A stretch of 34,567 nt of DNA, taken from NCBI GenBank assembly GCA_947465495.1, contig CANIAS010000025.1, forward strand, positions 1 through 34,567, given 5' to 3'. Every line of letters starts with the position of its first letter. Within the stretch, counting starts at the first letter, position 1. A program made the translations under genes and the position numbers. Positions 16,179-21,553 of the stretch are shown one piece after another. The DNA is from Candidatus Pollutiaquabacter sp. (lineage in GTDB: Bacteria > Bacteroidota > Bacteroidia > AKYH767-A > 2013-40CM-41-45). The notes below the pieces were generated by a model. The model saw only the letters and a program-made list of their open reading frames with translations, was not told where the DNA came from and did not search any database.

Positions 16179-17099
16179 TTAAAAAGAAGGGCGATTGCTT
16201 CGAAAGGCATTGGCATTCTGTCCATAACGCAATTTAAAACGCCGGCTAAAATACGCCGGGTCTTTGAATCCAACCTTTCTGGAAATTTCTTGAATACTGT
16301 CAGGCTGAGTGCGGAGTAAAAAGAGCGCTTGCTGTAATCGCTGTTCTTCAATATAGTCTTGAAGATTTTTACCAGTGAGAGACTTGAAAAATTGTCCGAC
16401 ATAATCTTCGGAGACGTACGCTACACTAGCCAGCACTTTATTAGAAAGATCTAGTGAAAGGTGTTCCTGAACATATTTAACGATATCAGCCAACCGACGA
16501 TCGGACAAGTATTCGAGGCGCTGTACAAATCCATCGTATTTCGGCTGACTGGCGATATAACGACACATGTGAATAATGATCTCTTCCATGTAATTCCGGA
16601 TGATCTTGTCGCGCCCGAGCTTATCCTGTTCATTTTCCAACGCAATATATCGGATGAGATGCCCAAACTCAGTATCTGAAGTTAGTGGAAATGGAGGCAT
16701 ACCCAATACTTCAAAAAAGGGAATCGCATCGTAAATAAGCACATCAAAAGAAACCGATACGATAACTTCCTTTTTTCTGGAAAGATCAGAAAGTCCGCTG
16801 ACCGGTCGGAAAATTTCCTGCAACGAATCCTTGTCTGAAAAACCAGCGGATGATACCGGCAGAAAAGTCCCTACTCCATGCCGAACGTGAATTGGATTTC
16901 CGGCAGGAAAAAAATAGAAACTATCAGGCTTTACGTCATACTCCTCTTTACCGGCAACCAAATGCCCACGATCGAGCAGTATGATGTGATTGTGCCTGTC
17001 AGAAGAGCCACGAACTTCCAATGGCTGAGATACTTCCCAATACGAAGCCGAATGGAAGTAAATGTGGAGGGAATCGATGAACTTGTTGAGTAGTGACAC
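16179..17099 (-). CDS. AraC-family transcriptional regulator
   Basis: This protein of about 306 residues has an N-terminal cupin-like sensor region (NHIILLDRGHLVAGKEEYDVKPDSFYFFPAG, split at about 30-60) and a C-terminal double helix-turn-helix of the AraC/XylS type. The latter includes LQDYIEEQRLQQALFLL and the signature IQEISRKVGFKDPAYFSRRFK near the end. It is expected to bind DNA as a regulator; its ligand and targets are unknown. The frame extends to a TTG at 17126, but that codon lies inside a perfect -7 box (17124-17131), so the GTG at 17099 is the better start, with a leader of about 25 nt. It is divergent from the transporter-kinase gene, which it might control. Confidence 0.83.
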   Translation of the reverse strand: MSLLNKFIDSLHIYFHSASYWEVSQPLEVRGSSDRHNHIILLDRGHLVAGKEEYDVKPDSFYFFPAGNPIHVRHGVGTFLPVSSAGFSDKDSLQEIFRPVSGLSDLSRKKEVIVSVSFDVLIYDAIPFFEVLGMPPFPLTSDTEFGHLIRYIALENEQDKLGRDKIIRNYMEEIIIHMCRYIASQPKYDGFVQRLEYLSDRRLADIVKYVQEHLSLDLSNKVLASVAYVSEDYVGQFFKSLTGKNLQDYIEEQRLQQALFLLRTQPDSIQEISRKVGFKDPAYFSRRFKLRYGQNANAFRSNRPSF

Positions 17100-17123
17100 A
17101 GCGTGGTAATTGTCGCGTATTCT

Positions 17124-17131
17124 CAAAGCTA
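17124..17131 (-). promoter_or_regulatory. -7 promoter element of the AraC-family gene
   Basis: On the minus strand TAGCTTTG matches TAnnTTTG exactly. It overlaps the furthest-upstream TTG of the reading frame, ruling that codon out as the start. Confidence 0.5.
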
Positions 17132-17227: not shown

Positions 17228-18361
17228 ATGATATCAGCATGGATCATTCTTGGCCAGCCGCTCTCCCCACTGGAAATGTTGGGTGCATCTACTGGCATGG
17301 CTGGTGTTTGGCTGACGGTTCGCCGGTCGAAGTGGTGTTTTCCGATTGGCCTAATTAGCGTTGTGAGCTATGCCTGCGTATTTATTCAAGACGACATACG
17401 TTTATACGCCGATGCTTTACTGCAACTGATATTTGGCGCACTACTTATCAATGGCTGGCGCAGTTGGAGTAAAAAAAACAGCGCTGACAAAATATCACCA
17501 ACGACCATGAACTACCTTGAATGGCGCTGGTTGTTTTTGGCGATTGTATTATCGACGTTTCTACTCGGCTACTTCTTCAGTAACTATACTGCAGCCGCTG
17601 TTCCTTGGCTCGACGCCACGTTGGCGGCTATTTCATTAGCTGCCCAATGGATGATCTCGTACCGAAAAAAGGAAAACTGGTGGCTTTGGATTTTTGTCAA
17701 TGTCATTTACATTCCACTATACTACTTTAAAGATCTACCGCTCACCGCACTGCTCTACGGCGTTTTCCTGATTATGGCCATTCGTGGATGGTACGCATGG
17801 AATCGTGTAGAAATACCAGTAGTTAGTTCAAGGAATAAAAAAAACTGCATCCGAATTGCCATACTGGGACCTGAATCGACTGGCAAGTCTATATTGGCCG
17901 AGTCTTTGGCCAAACATTTCCAAACATCGTGGGCTCCGGAATACGCTCGTAACTATTTGCAACAAAAAGTTGGCAAGTATTCGATAGACGACGTACTTCA
18001 CTGCGCAAGGAATCAACAATGGAGCGAATCCGAAGCTATTGGCATAGCAAACGCTGTCGTTTTTTTCGATACCGAAATGATCAATTTCAAAGTGTGGCTG
18101 GAAGACCGATTTCAGCACTGCCCTGGCTGGATCTCTAAAAATTTGAATGAACGGTATGATTGCTATTTATTGACCGTACCGGACTTGCCCTTCGAAGAAG
18201 ATCCGTTACGCGAAAACCCTCACCGTCGGGATCACTTATTTGCCTGGTATAAACACGAAGTGGAAAATGCTGGGATTCCTTATGCTCTAGTTTCGGGCGA
18301 GGGAAATATCCGTTTTGAAAATGCTTGTGACGCCGTCAACAAGTTTTTGGCAAATCATTAA
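17228..18361 (+). CDS. PnuC transporter fused to NadR-like kinase
   Basis: This protein of about 377 residues is a fusion. Residues 1-200 form a PnuC-family inner-membrane facilitator with about seven helices, including the family's NWWLWIFVNVIYIPLYYF substrate-site helix and LTALLYGVFLIMAIRGWYAW. From about residue 208 a soluble P-loop kinase resembling the ribosylnicotinamide-kinase domain of NadR follows (GPESTGKS at 214-221, then WAPEYARNYLQQ). The design suggests uptake with immediate phosphorylation to trap the vitamin. The substrate could be nicotinamide riboside or, given the TPP-riboswitch receptor 0.8 kb downstream and known PnuT genes of Bacteroidota, thiamine. The ATG at 17228 is preferred over an in-frame TTG at 17183. 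It converges on the next gene, 6 nt away. Confidence 0.85.
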   Translation: MISAWIILGQPLSPLEMLGASTGMAGVWLTVRRSKWCFPIGLISVVSYACVFIQDDIRLYADALLQLIFGALLINGWRSWSKKNSADKISPTTMNYLEWRWLFLAIVLSTFLLGYFFSNYTAAAVPWLDATLAAISLAAQWMISYRKKENWWLWIFVNVIYIPLYYFKDLPLTALLYGVFLIMAIRGWYAWNRVEIPVVSSRNKKNCIRIAILGPESTGKSILAESLAKHFQTSWAPEYARNYLQQKVGKYSIDDVLHCARNQQWSESEAIGIANAVVFFDTEMINFKVWLEDRFQHCPGWISKNLNERYDCYLLTVPDLPFEEDPLRENPHRRDHLFAWYKHEVENAGIPYALVSGEGNIRFENACDAVNKFLANH

Positions 18362-18367
18362 AACGCT

Positions 18368-18898
18368 TTAGTACCGGAATAAATACCGCATTGAAAAACC
18401 AAAGTCAATGTACTCAGGTCCACGATTGATAAATTCATAATAAGGACACACATCGATGGCAAAGGAAAGTGGGATAGATTTCTTGATTTGATATTCCAGC
18501 TCAATGGTCGCATCCACGCCGGCAGAAATGACATCAGTAGTATAGTATTCTGGCTCTTTCCCGTTCTTCACCCGCTTGTAATAACCTCGTTCAGCCAAAG
18601 GAAAGAAACCTGCATGAGTTCCTGCGCCGACAATCAAGTCCAATGGTAATTGGATAATGGGTACTTTAAAAGGCACTTGCTTGATGGCGAAACCTTTGAT
18701 GGTATAACCACCAGAAGCAATGTTGGTATAGTACCCATCAAGTTTTAATCCAGTCGAATTATCCGTATTCCAAAAATACTTAAAGGTGACTCCCGTGTTG
18801 AATTTACCCGCACGCCCACCGAATGCTGCGTAGTAGCGCTGAGCATTGCCGGTTTGAATCATTAAAACGAAGAGTACTAACAACCAACTCTTTTTCAT
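18368..18898 (-). CDS. Small outer-membrane beta-barrel-like protein
   Basis: This 176-residue protein has a clear Sec signal peptide (MKKSWLLVLFVLMIQTGNAQ, cleavage after about residue 19). Alternating aromatic/hydrophobic strands separated by Gly-rich turns follow (GVTFKYFWN, GLKLDGYYTN, LIVGAGTHAGFFP, IDFGFSMRYLFRY). It ends in an aromatic residue, as outer-membrane barrels do. The size fits an 8-stranded barrel. I do not recognise a specific family. It lies between the PnuC-kinase fusion and the TPP-controlled receptor but on the opposite strand, sharing the 264-nt upstream region with the riboswitch. Only a weak -7 (TACCTTGA) is visible upstream. A link to vitamin uptake is conjecture. 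Confidence 0.7.
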   Translation of the reverse strand: MKKSWLLVLFVLMIQTGNAQRYYAAFGGRAGKFNTGVTFKYFWNTDNSTGLKLDGYYTNIASGGYTIKGFAIKQVPFKVPIIQLPLDLIVGAGTHAGFFPLAERGYYKRVKNGKEPEYYTTDVISAGVDATIELEYQIKKSIPLSFAIDVCPYYEFINRGPEYIDFGFSMRYLFRY

Positions 18899-19005
18899 AG
18901 ACTCAAGGTACTAATTTTGACCAGTTCGAAAAACTGAACGACTAAACGATTCGCGAACAAATCCACCATGCAATTGTTTTAAAGTCCAATTGGTGAGGAT
19001 TTGTA

Positions 19006-19013
19006 TATCTTTG
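19006..19013 (+). promoter_or_regulatory. -7 promoter element of the TPP-riboswitch transcript
   Basis: TATCTTTG is an exact match and ends 7 nt before the first conserved base of the TPP aptamer, so the transcript starts just ahead of the riboswitch. Confidence 0.6.
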
Positions 19014-19018
19014 CCTTT

Positions 19019-19098
19019 CACTGGGGTGCCCGCCAAGCGCGGGCTGAGATCACACCCATCGAACCTGAACAGGGTAATGCCTGCGAAGGGAGGTTGGT
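19019..19098 (+). ncRNA. TPP riboswitch (THI element)
   Basis: The conserved aptamer parts appear in order: CTGGGGTGCCC, GGGCTGAGAT, CACACCC, GAACCTGA, AGGGTAATGCCTGCGAAGGGA. The pyrimidine-sensor CTGAGA and the pyrophosphate-sensor region both match the family core. It binds thiamine pyrophosphate and should repress the downstream receptor gene when TPP is plentiful. The 64 nt to the ATG contain ATTGCG (19104-19109) pairing with CGCAAT (19133-19138), a candidate expression-platform hairpin without a T-tract. That suggests control of translation, or of an alternative fold, rather than intrinsic termination. Confidence 0.95.
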
Positions 19099-19162
19099 TC
19101 AACATTGCGGCGCTTAGTGGCCCCGTGCTTTGCGCAATTGTATAACCTGTTATCATCCAACG

Positions 19163-21553
19163 ATGAATTTTATTGCACGTACCTGTACACTGGCTGCTAT
19201 TTGCCTGATTGCATCCTGCTATAACCTACTAGCACAAAACACCATTGACGGCCAAATTACGGATCGCAGCGACCGATCACCTATACCAGGAGTAGTAGTT
19301 AAAATTGCCAATTCCTTCGCTGCCACAATTACCGGACCGACTGGGCAATTTCATATGGACAAACTACAAGGCGACTCCGTCACCCTTGAGTTCTCTCACA
19401 TTGCTTACCAAGACACATCAGTGAGAGTGTCGTTGAGCGCTGGTAATACATCCTTGCAATGGTCCATGTCTCCAGGAATCTATTTATCCAAAGAAGTAAA
19501 CGTCATTGCCACACGTGCCAATGACCAATCCGCTATCGCCTACACGTCTATCAGCAAAGATGAATTAGACGTTGTCAATCTTGGCCAAGACCTTCCCATT
19601 CTATTACAACTCCAGCCTTCGGTCACAACAACCTCCGATGCGGGCAACGGTGTTGGGTACACGGGTCTGCGCATCCGCGGCAGTGATGCTACACGGGTGA
19701 ATGTGACCATCAACGGAATTCCTGTCAACGACGCCGAATCACACCAAGTGTATTGGGTGGATCTACCGGATATTGCCGCATCGGTCGATAACATTCAATT
19801 GCAGCGCGGTGTTGGTAGTTCCACCAACGGACCAGGCTCTTTCGGCGGAAGCCTCAACATGCAAACAACCACCCTGCAACAGGAAGCTTTTACCGAATTA
19901 AATTCCTTCTACGGATCATTTAACACCCATCGTAATGCACTCAAATTTGGCACTGGACTACTGCATGAACGCTTCGCATTGGATGGACGGTTGTCCATCG
20001 TCCATTCAGACGGCTATATGGATCGAGCAACCTCCAATCTGCAGTCACTTTATTTATCAGGCGGCTATTATGGCGCCAAACAATCACTCCGTGCTGTGGT
20101 GATGATTGGTAAAGAAAAAACTTATCAATCGTGGTACGGCGTTCCGGAAGACTCATTGGCAACGAATCGCACGTTCAACATGGCTGGACTATATTACGAC
20201 CGCAGTGGGCAGGTTCAGTATTACGACAACCAAACTGATAATTACAAACAAGACTATTATCAATTCTTGTATGCGCGTGAACTCGGGCACGACTGGTTGT
20301 TCAATGCCGCACTTTTTTACACGAAAGGAAAGGGGTACTACGAAGAATATGTGCAGGAACCCATGATCGATGGCGGCGGACTTGACCCCGACTCCATGAC
20401 AGACAGTATTTATATTCAACCCGCACATATTCAGCAAAGGTGGCTAGACAACGATTACCGAGGCTTGGTTTGGTCGCTGCAACGCCAATTTGCGCAGGTA
20501 GATTTCACGGCAGGAGGAACTTTTTCCGCCTATAACGGATTGCATTTTGGTGAAATTATCTGGCAGAACTATACTATTATTCCGGAAGAACCCTATCGTT
20601 ACTACCAGGACACCGCCAGCAAAAAAGACAATAGCGTATTTTTCAAAGCAACCTGGAATTTCCGCGAAGGATGGTTCTTGATGAGCGACGCGCAACTACG
20701 ACACGTCAATTATACCTTTACGGGAAAGGATACGAATGGAAATCCACTGCCAGCGGAAGCACCGCTGACCTTCTTCAATCCGAAAGTCGGCCTCACCTAC
20801 TCCCCCGACTCCAGAAATCGATGGTATGCATCTGCAAGTGTCGGCCAAAAAGAACCCACGCGAGAGGACTACCTCGCGTCGACTCCTAAATCACGGCCGC
20901 TGCCAGAACGGATGATTGATTACGAGTGCGGATATCGTTTTACTGGAAATCACATAAGCACAGGACTAAATCTTTACTGCATGGACTATGTCAGCCAATT
21001 AGTCCTGAACGGCAGCATCAACGACGTCGGCGAATACGTAAGAGAAAGTATTGGCGACAGCTACCGGACCGGCGTGGAGCTCGATGCCACGTGGGCACCG
21101 TCCAACCATTGGCAGGTGCAAGGCAATGTGACCATCTCACGTAATCGCATCAAAAATTACAACGACTACGTCTATGACGGTGCGTCCGGAAGTACAATCA
21201 TGATAACATATGCAAACACCTCCATCTCGTTCTCACCGGAAATCATCAGCGGTGCAGTACTAACGTGGAAACCGGTGAAAGGCTTATCGTTTAGCCTGGC
21301 GAACAAATACGTCGGGCAGCAATTCCTGGACAACACGCAAAGCGACGATCGTGCCTTGCCAGCCTACTGTTTTCAGGACGTGCGGGTGGAATGGAGTCCG
21401 GTAGTGAAAAAAATAAAATCGTTTTCATTGCGCGGCGCCGTCTACAACGTGACTGACCGAAAGTACAGCACAAACGGATACACCTACGGCGGTAATTATT
21501 ACTACCCACAAGCTGGCATCAACTTCATGGGCGGAGTGACGGTAGGGTTTTAA
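19163..21553 (+). CDS. TonB-dependent receptor, probable thiamine uptake
   Basis: This outer-membrane receptor of about 796 residues has a signal peptide ending LLAQ (about 24). A carboxypeptidase-regulatory-like domain follows (GQITDRSDRSPIPGVVVKI to about 110), then a plug domain (about 125-240, including YTGLRIRGSDATRVNVTINGIP, split, and FGGSLNMQT). A 22-strand barrel ends in the sorting-type INFMGGVTVGF with terminal Phe. The TPP riboswitch directly upstream makes thiamine or a precursor or analogue the likely substrate, as for the Omr1 receptors of Bacteroidota. The frame opens at a TTG within the leader, but the ATG at 19163 precedes the signal peptide. It appears monocistronic; the next gene is on the other strand. 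Confidence 0.9.
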   Translation: MNFIARTCTLAAICLIASCYNLLAQNTIDGQITDRSDRSPIPGVVVKIANSFAATITGPTGQFHMDKLQGDSVTLEFSHIAYQDTSVRVSLSAGNTSLQWSMSPGIYLSKEVNVIATRANDQSAIAYTSISKDELDVVNLGQDLPILLQLQPSVTTTSDAGNGVGYTGLRIRGSDATRVNVTINGIPVNDAESHQVYWVDLPDIAASVDNIQLQRGVGSSTNGPGSFGGSLNMQTTTLQQEAFTELNSFYGSFNTHRNALKFGTGLLHERFALDGRLSIVHSDGYMDRATSNLQSLYLSGGYYGAKQSLRAVVMIGKEKTYQSWYGVPEDSLATNRTFNMAGLYYDRSGQVQYYDNQTDNYKQDYYQFLYARELGHDWLFNAALFYTKGKGYYEEYVQEPMIDGGGLDPDSMTDSIYIQPAHIQQRWLDNDYRGLVWSLQRQFAQVDFTAGGTFSAYNGLHFGEIIWQNYTIIPEEPYRYYQDTASKKDNSVFFKATWNFREGWFLMSDAQLRHVNYTFTGKDTNGNPLPAEAPLTFFNPKVGLTYSPDSRNRWYASASVGQKEPTREDYLASTPKSRPLPERMIDYECGYRFTGNHISTGLNLYCMDYVSQLVLNGSINDVGEYVRESIGDSYRTGVELDATWAPSNHWQVQGNVTISRNRIKNYNDYVYDGASGSTIMITYANTSISFSPEIISGAVLTWKPVKGLSFSLANKYVGQQFLDNTQSDDRALPAYCFQDVRVEWSPVVKKIKSFSLRGAVYNVTDRKYSTNGYTYGGNYYYPQAGINFMGGVTVGF

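Follow-up and report, generated by a model that had tools for sequence, protein, structure and literature searches.

The window is a stretch of 34,567 nucleotides from a Candidatus Pollutiaquabacter genome (assembly GCA_947465495.1, contig CANIAS010000025.1), whose assembly amounts to 2.72 Mb in 117 contigs and is 97.8% complete. One reading frame in this window joins a PnuC-type transporter to a NadR-like kinase; downstream of it come a small gene in the reverse orientation, a TPP riboswitch, and a gene for a TonB-dependent receptor (see the table). The ATG at position 17228 was taken as the start of the fusion gene because the PnuC alignment begins there.

Features of the fusion locus, with positions counted from the first letter of the window
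Feature	Positions	Strand	Size or detail
AraC-family regulator, divergent from the fusion gene	16179-17126	-	candidate regulator
pnuC-nadR-like kinase fusion gene (predicted PnuT plus thiamine kinase)	17228-18361	+	377 aa
PnuC (NMN_transporter) domain	17264-17806	+	7-helix SWEET-type fold; W151xxW154xxxN158 motif kept
Linker, in place of the stop and start codons of relatives	17807-17851	+	~15 aa; A8 run at 17837-17844
Ribosylnicotinamide-kinase-type domain (AAA_28)	17852-18358	+	NadR fold
P-loop GPESTGKS	17867-17890	+	aa 214-221
Lid segment DPLREN	18200-18217	+	aa 325-330; DGxR at the same place in NadRs
Protein with signal-like N-terminus and without known family	18368-18898	-	176 aa; position conserved in the family
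TPP riboswitch in the leader of the receptor gene	19012-19109	+	
TonB-dependent receptor, predicted thiamine receptor (OMthi-like)	19163-21553	+	

A Pfam scan of the fusion protein found only PF04973 (E value of 3.6e-49; 167.5 bits against a cut-off of 27.3, covering profile positions 1 to 175 of 175) and PF13521, or AAA_28 (E value of 2.3e-28), both within the single open frame. The scan found no NMN adenylyltransferase domain, no TPK_catalytic domain (PF04263; ThiN/Tnr3), and no match to the Pfam families of ThiK and ThiM (phosphotransferase APH and HK). The NadR model TIGR01526 scored 82.6 bits on this protein, which is below its cut-off of 341.15. The initial annotation had described a PnuC domain and a P-loop kinase in one frame, 0.8 kb from a TonB receptor preceded by a TPP riboswitch, and all of this was borne out. 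The frame indeed carries both domains, 801 bp separate its stop codon from the receptor start, and the riboswitch matches RF00059 with 64.2 bits against a gathering score of 54.3. Riboswitches were detected with a covariance model, which replaced a regular expression that had missed known riboswitches.

Relatives from the same family encode the two halves as two adjacent genes that usually overlap or abut. When the A run at the junction was set to 6, 7, 9, or 10 residues, the kinase frame was left without any ATG, GTG, or TTG codon, and thus the kinase is expressible only through the fused reading. These alternative run lengths rule out a simple homopolymer frameshift artefact at the A8 run. 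No further fusion was present in 80 named Bacteroidota loci, which include Hymenobacter, Pontibacter, Imperialibacter, Paludibacter, and many MAGs, and none appeared among the matches listed for 295 sampled Bacteroidia. Three candidates for further fusions (G010, G238, and G265) each have a stop codon between the halves, which in G010 abut in frame as TAA-ATG. We regard the fusion as genuine though rare, with two genes being the normal form of the module. The fused module first described from this DNA therefore stands, but as a rare variant of an arrangement that its relatives distribute over two proteins.

The usual gene order in the same family is a divergent AraC gene, pnuC, the kinase gene, the small opposite-strand gene, the TPP riboswitch, and the receptor gene. 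The riboswitch and receptor are located 0.65 to 0.8 kb downstream of the fusion gene, and this linkage is conserved in nine of ten same-family relatives. More broadly, 21 of 51 relatives with the kinase have a TPP riboswitch no more than about 6 kb away from its gene, where fewer than one of 51 would be expected by chance given one or two riboswitches per genome. Among the 80 named loci, PnuC is present at the locus in 68 and a TPP motif lies near the kinase in 24. According to the covariance model, no riboswitch precedes the fusion gene itself. All riboswitches of kinase-carrying genomes that could be read precede receptors, also when they are located elsewhere; in most genomes with thiC, the TPP riboswitch precedes an open reading frame other than a receptor, which is the front of thiC where positions are comparable. 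Judged by these positions, the gene predicted to be under TPP control is that of the receptor (with plug, barrel, and CarbopepD_reg_2 domains) and not that of the transporter and kinase. In most same-family relatives and several of the same order, the AraC-family gene is transcribed divergently from pnuC-kinase; it is a candidate dedicated regulator of the transporter-kinase gene. The 176-aa protein has no Pfam match, and its gene sits on the opposite strand between the kinase and the riboswitch in nearly all same-family genomes. A scan for the Bacteroidota promoter motif gave results that were not above chance.

Both PnuC and the TPP riboswitch are single-copy in the source genome, at the fusion locus. 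A separate TPP-regulated pnuT elsewhere, which the initial annotation had named as a finding that would speak against thiamine, was not encountered, as the genome holds no second PnuC and no second TPP riboswitch. Structure prediction had been proposed there as a check, and the AlphaFold models likewise agree with the domain assignments. The PnuC half is modeled with seven helices (pLDDT 93.3) and matches PnuC 4qtn with Z 20.1 at 3.0 A over 191 residues, compared to Z 8.1 for the next match. The model of the kinase half (pLDDT 94.9) matches NadR 8x7f at Z 22.3, far above the next unrelated fold. With the ribosylnicotinamide kinase domain of NadR (PDB 8x7f, 6gyf, and 1lw7), the kinase half shares the fold, the P-loop, the Walker B aspartate in a DT motif, E238/R241, and the lid arginine R328. 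It differs in being standalone or fused to a transporter, in having only 21 to 25% identity, and in the replacement of the lid glycine.

All six NadRs that were compared carry DGxR at the lid position, whereas the fusion kinase has DPLR. Standalone kinases have DPxR in 83% of cases and otherwise mainly D or E at this position, and glycine is absent from the residues listed at the lid column for 66 of them. We regard this lid difference as a correlate of a changed substrate, not as proof of one. In the kinase tree, the four NadRs from outside the group fall on one side (SH-aLRT 97), and two Bacteroidota NadRs (L109 and L240) attach close to the base of the standalone kinases, which suggests that the standalone family arose from the NadR kinase domain. 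The collection scan was run with a closer subset of kinases, because an alignment of 42 proved too diverse for it. Other fusions of the same kinase were also seen. In family f58, it is fused to DUF4301 (PF14134; 669.6 bits in L234) at three loci (L234:4769-6889, L235, and L233), and these genes adjoin PnuC and a TPP-controlled receptor; DUF4301 may thus take part in thiamine metabolism. Two further genomes have the kinase joined to other domains, namely a GNAT acetyltransferase (L239:4221-5207) and an aldose 1-epimerase domain (L237:4163-5608).

Characterized relatives that are specific for nicotinamide riboside exist for both halves, and the fusion might accordingly be read as an importer and kinase of that compound, with the TPP-controlled receptor nearby by accident or for another vitamin. 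Consistent with this reading, nadA and NAPRTase were not found in the source genome, and a PnuC tree that joins the group of the fusion with the nicotinamide riboside transporters of Escherichia coli and Neisseria was not rejected (p = 0.61, in a tree that is without a characterized PnuT). However, the source genome does carry 3-HAO and for this reason probably makes NAD from tryptophan by the kynurenine route. The fusion also lacks the NMN adenylyltransferase domain and has a lid unlike that of the six NadRs compared. Furthermore, true pairs of PnuC with a NadR that includes an adenylyltransferase domain exist separately in two sampled Bacteroidota genomes (L109 in G055 and L240 in G139), have no TPP riboswitch nearby, and in G055 coexist with a separate standalone kinase (L108).

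The PnuC sequences themselves point in neither direction, as residues compared for a signature of thiamine or nicotinamide riboside gave none that was clear. A topology placing the PnuCs of genomes with thiamine pyrophosphokinase (TPK) in one clade was rejected (AU p = 1e-5); they are scattered among kinase-linked PnuCs, as if kinase and TPK were exchanged beside one kind of transporter. The substrate assignment for PnuC is based on context and distribution and not on sequence phylogeny.

To follow this distribution, the same 80 genomes were scored for the kinase, thiC, TPK (PF04263), thiL, nadA, NAPRTase, and 3-HAO, and one genome, in which the locus coincides with a contig end, was left out of the counts that compare the kinase with thiC or TPK. 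Either thiC or TPK is present in none of the 52 kinase-positive genomes, compared to 22 of the 27 kinase-negative genomes. With one good genome per family, the corresponding counts are 0 of 19 with the kinase and 19 of 20 without it (Fisher 3e-10, an approximation that treats families as independent). The kinase shows no association with nadA (p = 1; one genome per family, p = 0.52), and nadA or 3-HAO is present in all 69 genomes that are at least 90% complete. The kinase thus follows the loss of thiC and TPK strictly and does not follow NAD genes, and we consider it quite improbable that the fusion serves nicotinamide riboside.

The source genome fits the pattern, with neither thiC nor a TPK found. 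Genomes with thiC that are without TPK never carry PnuC, and PnuC is present in six of seven TPK genomes. One of the genomes (G072) has riboswitch, receptor, PnuC, and TPK side by side in an uninterrupted run, which resembles the Bacteroides arrangement (PMC5613172). Kinase and TPK exclude each other while PnuC accompanies either of them, and we therefore see the two enzymes as interchangeable companions of one type of transporter. Most genomes with one of these enzymes are ones in which the thiamine pyrimidine is no longer made. Five genomes have neither the kinase nor thiC nor TPK. In G033, G036, and G074, which lack all three, thiamine may be phosphorylated by yet a different route; of these, G033 and G074 possess a TPP-controlled receptor.

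ThiL is present in nearly all genomes, including every kinase genome except the source genome, and because it is also universal where the kinase is missing, it is not diagnostic. Since nearly all kinase genomes have ThiL despite lacking thiC, the module could act on a thiamine precursor (HMP or hydroxyethylthiazole), importing and phosphorylating it in the manner of ThiD or ThiM, with ThiE and ThiL completing TPP. This possibility is unlikely in our view, since the kinase is exclusive with TPK, an enzyme that acts on thiamine itself, and both accompany PnuC; PnuT is likewise known as a thiamine carrier from work cited in PMC5613172.

The replacement of TPK by the kinase in genome distribution might instead mean that the kinase half is a pyrophosphokinase that makes TPP directly and dispenses with ThiL, and thiL was indeed not found in the assembly of the source genome. 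NadR-fold kinases, however, transfer a single phosphate, as established for NadR, and all other kinase genomes have thiL. In relatives, thiL lies just upstream of iscA-sufB; at this spot in the source genome, a 4.2-kb contig breaks off within a repeat. This assembly break at the syntenic place weakens the case for a real loss of thiL, and direct synthesis of TPP by the kinase half seems extremely improbable. The contig end in question (L225:1-290, contig C108) carries tandem-like repeats with GCGCCCGTTGGTATTATGGCGACGGAT just upstream of iscA.

We think it quite probable that the locus is a thiamine capture system, in which the PnuC half would import the vitamin and the kinase half would phosphorylate it, probably to thiamine monophosphate. 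It is also probable that a family of NadR-derived kinases, widespread in Bacteroidota, phosphorylates thiamine and replaces TPK beside PnuT, with the present gene being a version that imports and traps within a single polypeptide. The coupling of thiamine import to phosphorylation proposed in the initial annotation is favored by the mutual exclusion of the kinase with thiC and TPK, the linkage to a TPP riboswitch and receptor, and the independence from NAD synthesis. We infer from these patterns thiamine as the substrate of both halves, thiamine monophosphate as the product, and a tighter coupling through fusion.

In the mechanism we propose, the TonB receptor would take up thiamine across the outer membrane and would be repressed by TPP through its riboswitch. 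Thiamine would then cross the inner membrane by facilitated diffusion through the PnuC half (a putative PnuT) and be phosphorylated by the tethered kinase half at the inner face, most likely yielding thiamine monophosphate. This product could not leave the cell, and an inward gradient of thiamine would be kept while ThiL converts the monophosphate to TPP. The fusion would fix the ratio and proximity of import and phosphorylation and might thus couple them more tightly, although it is not required for function because the other loci examined use two proteins.

Several parts of this system are already known, namely the pairing of a transporter with a trapping kinase, PnuT, and TPP-controlled receptors. 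Bacteroides thetaiotaomicron has an operon of PnuT and Tnr3 (a thiamine pyrophosphokinase) with OMthi, in which PnuT-tnr3 is under TPP control (PMC5613172). The fusion locus shares with it a TPP riboswitch, a TonB receptor, a Pnu-type transporter, and, as predicted here, a thiamine-phosphorylating partner. It differs in that this partner is a NadR-type kinase rather than a TPK, in the fusion, and in a riboswitch that controls the receptor only. With PnuC-NadR gene pairs, which serve nicotinamide riboside (PMC7221760), it has in common a Pnu-type transporter beside a substrate-trapping enzyme of ribosylnicotinamide kinase fold. Unlike those pairs, it has no NMN adenylyltransferase and carries a DPxR lid and a TPP link, and its distribution follows thiamine genes rather than NAD genes. 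Annotation of thiamine salvage usually relies on ThiK, ThiM, and ThiN (PMC6593275); ThiK and ThiN/Tnr3 have the same salvage role that is predicted for the kinase but belong to other protein families. No NadR-like thiamine kinase, and no fusion of one to PnuT, was found in the open-access literature searched, and a thiamine kinase of NadR descent thus appears to be an undescribed family. This kinase family is the main interest of our analysis, and the rare fusion is a curiosity. The fusion nevertheless offers a simple construct with which to test phosphorylation trapping as the driver of a facilitated-diffusion vitamin transporter.

Current family models name the kinase an AAA or NadR-type protein and the transporter a nicotinamide riboside transporter. 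If the kinase does act on thiamine, many Bacteroidota that seemingly lack a thiamine-phosphorylating enzyme would have a complete salvage route, and predictions of auxotrophy and cross-feeding for these organisms would change.
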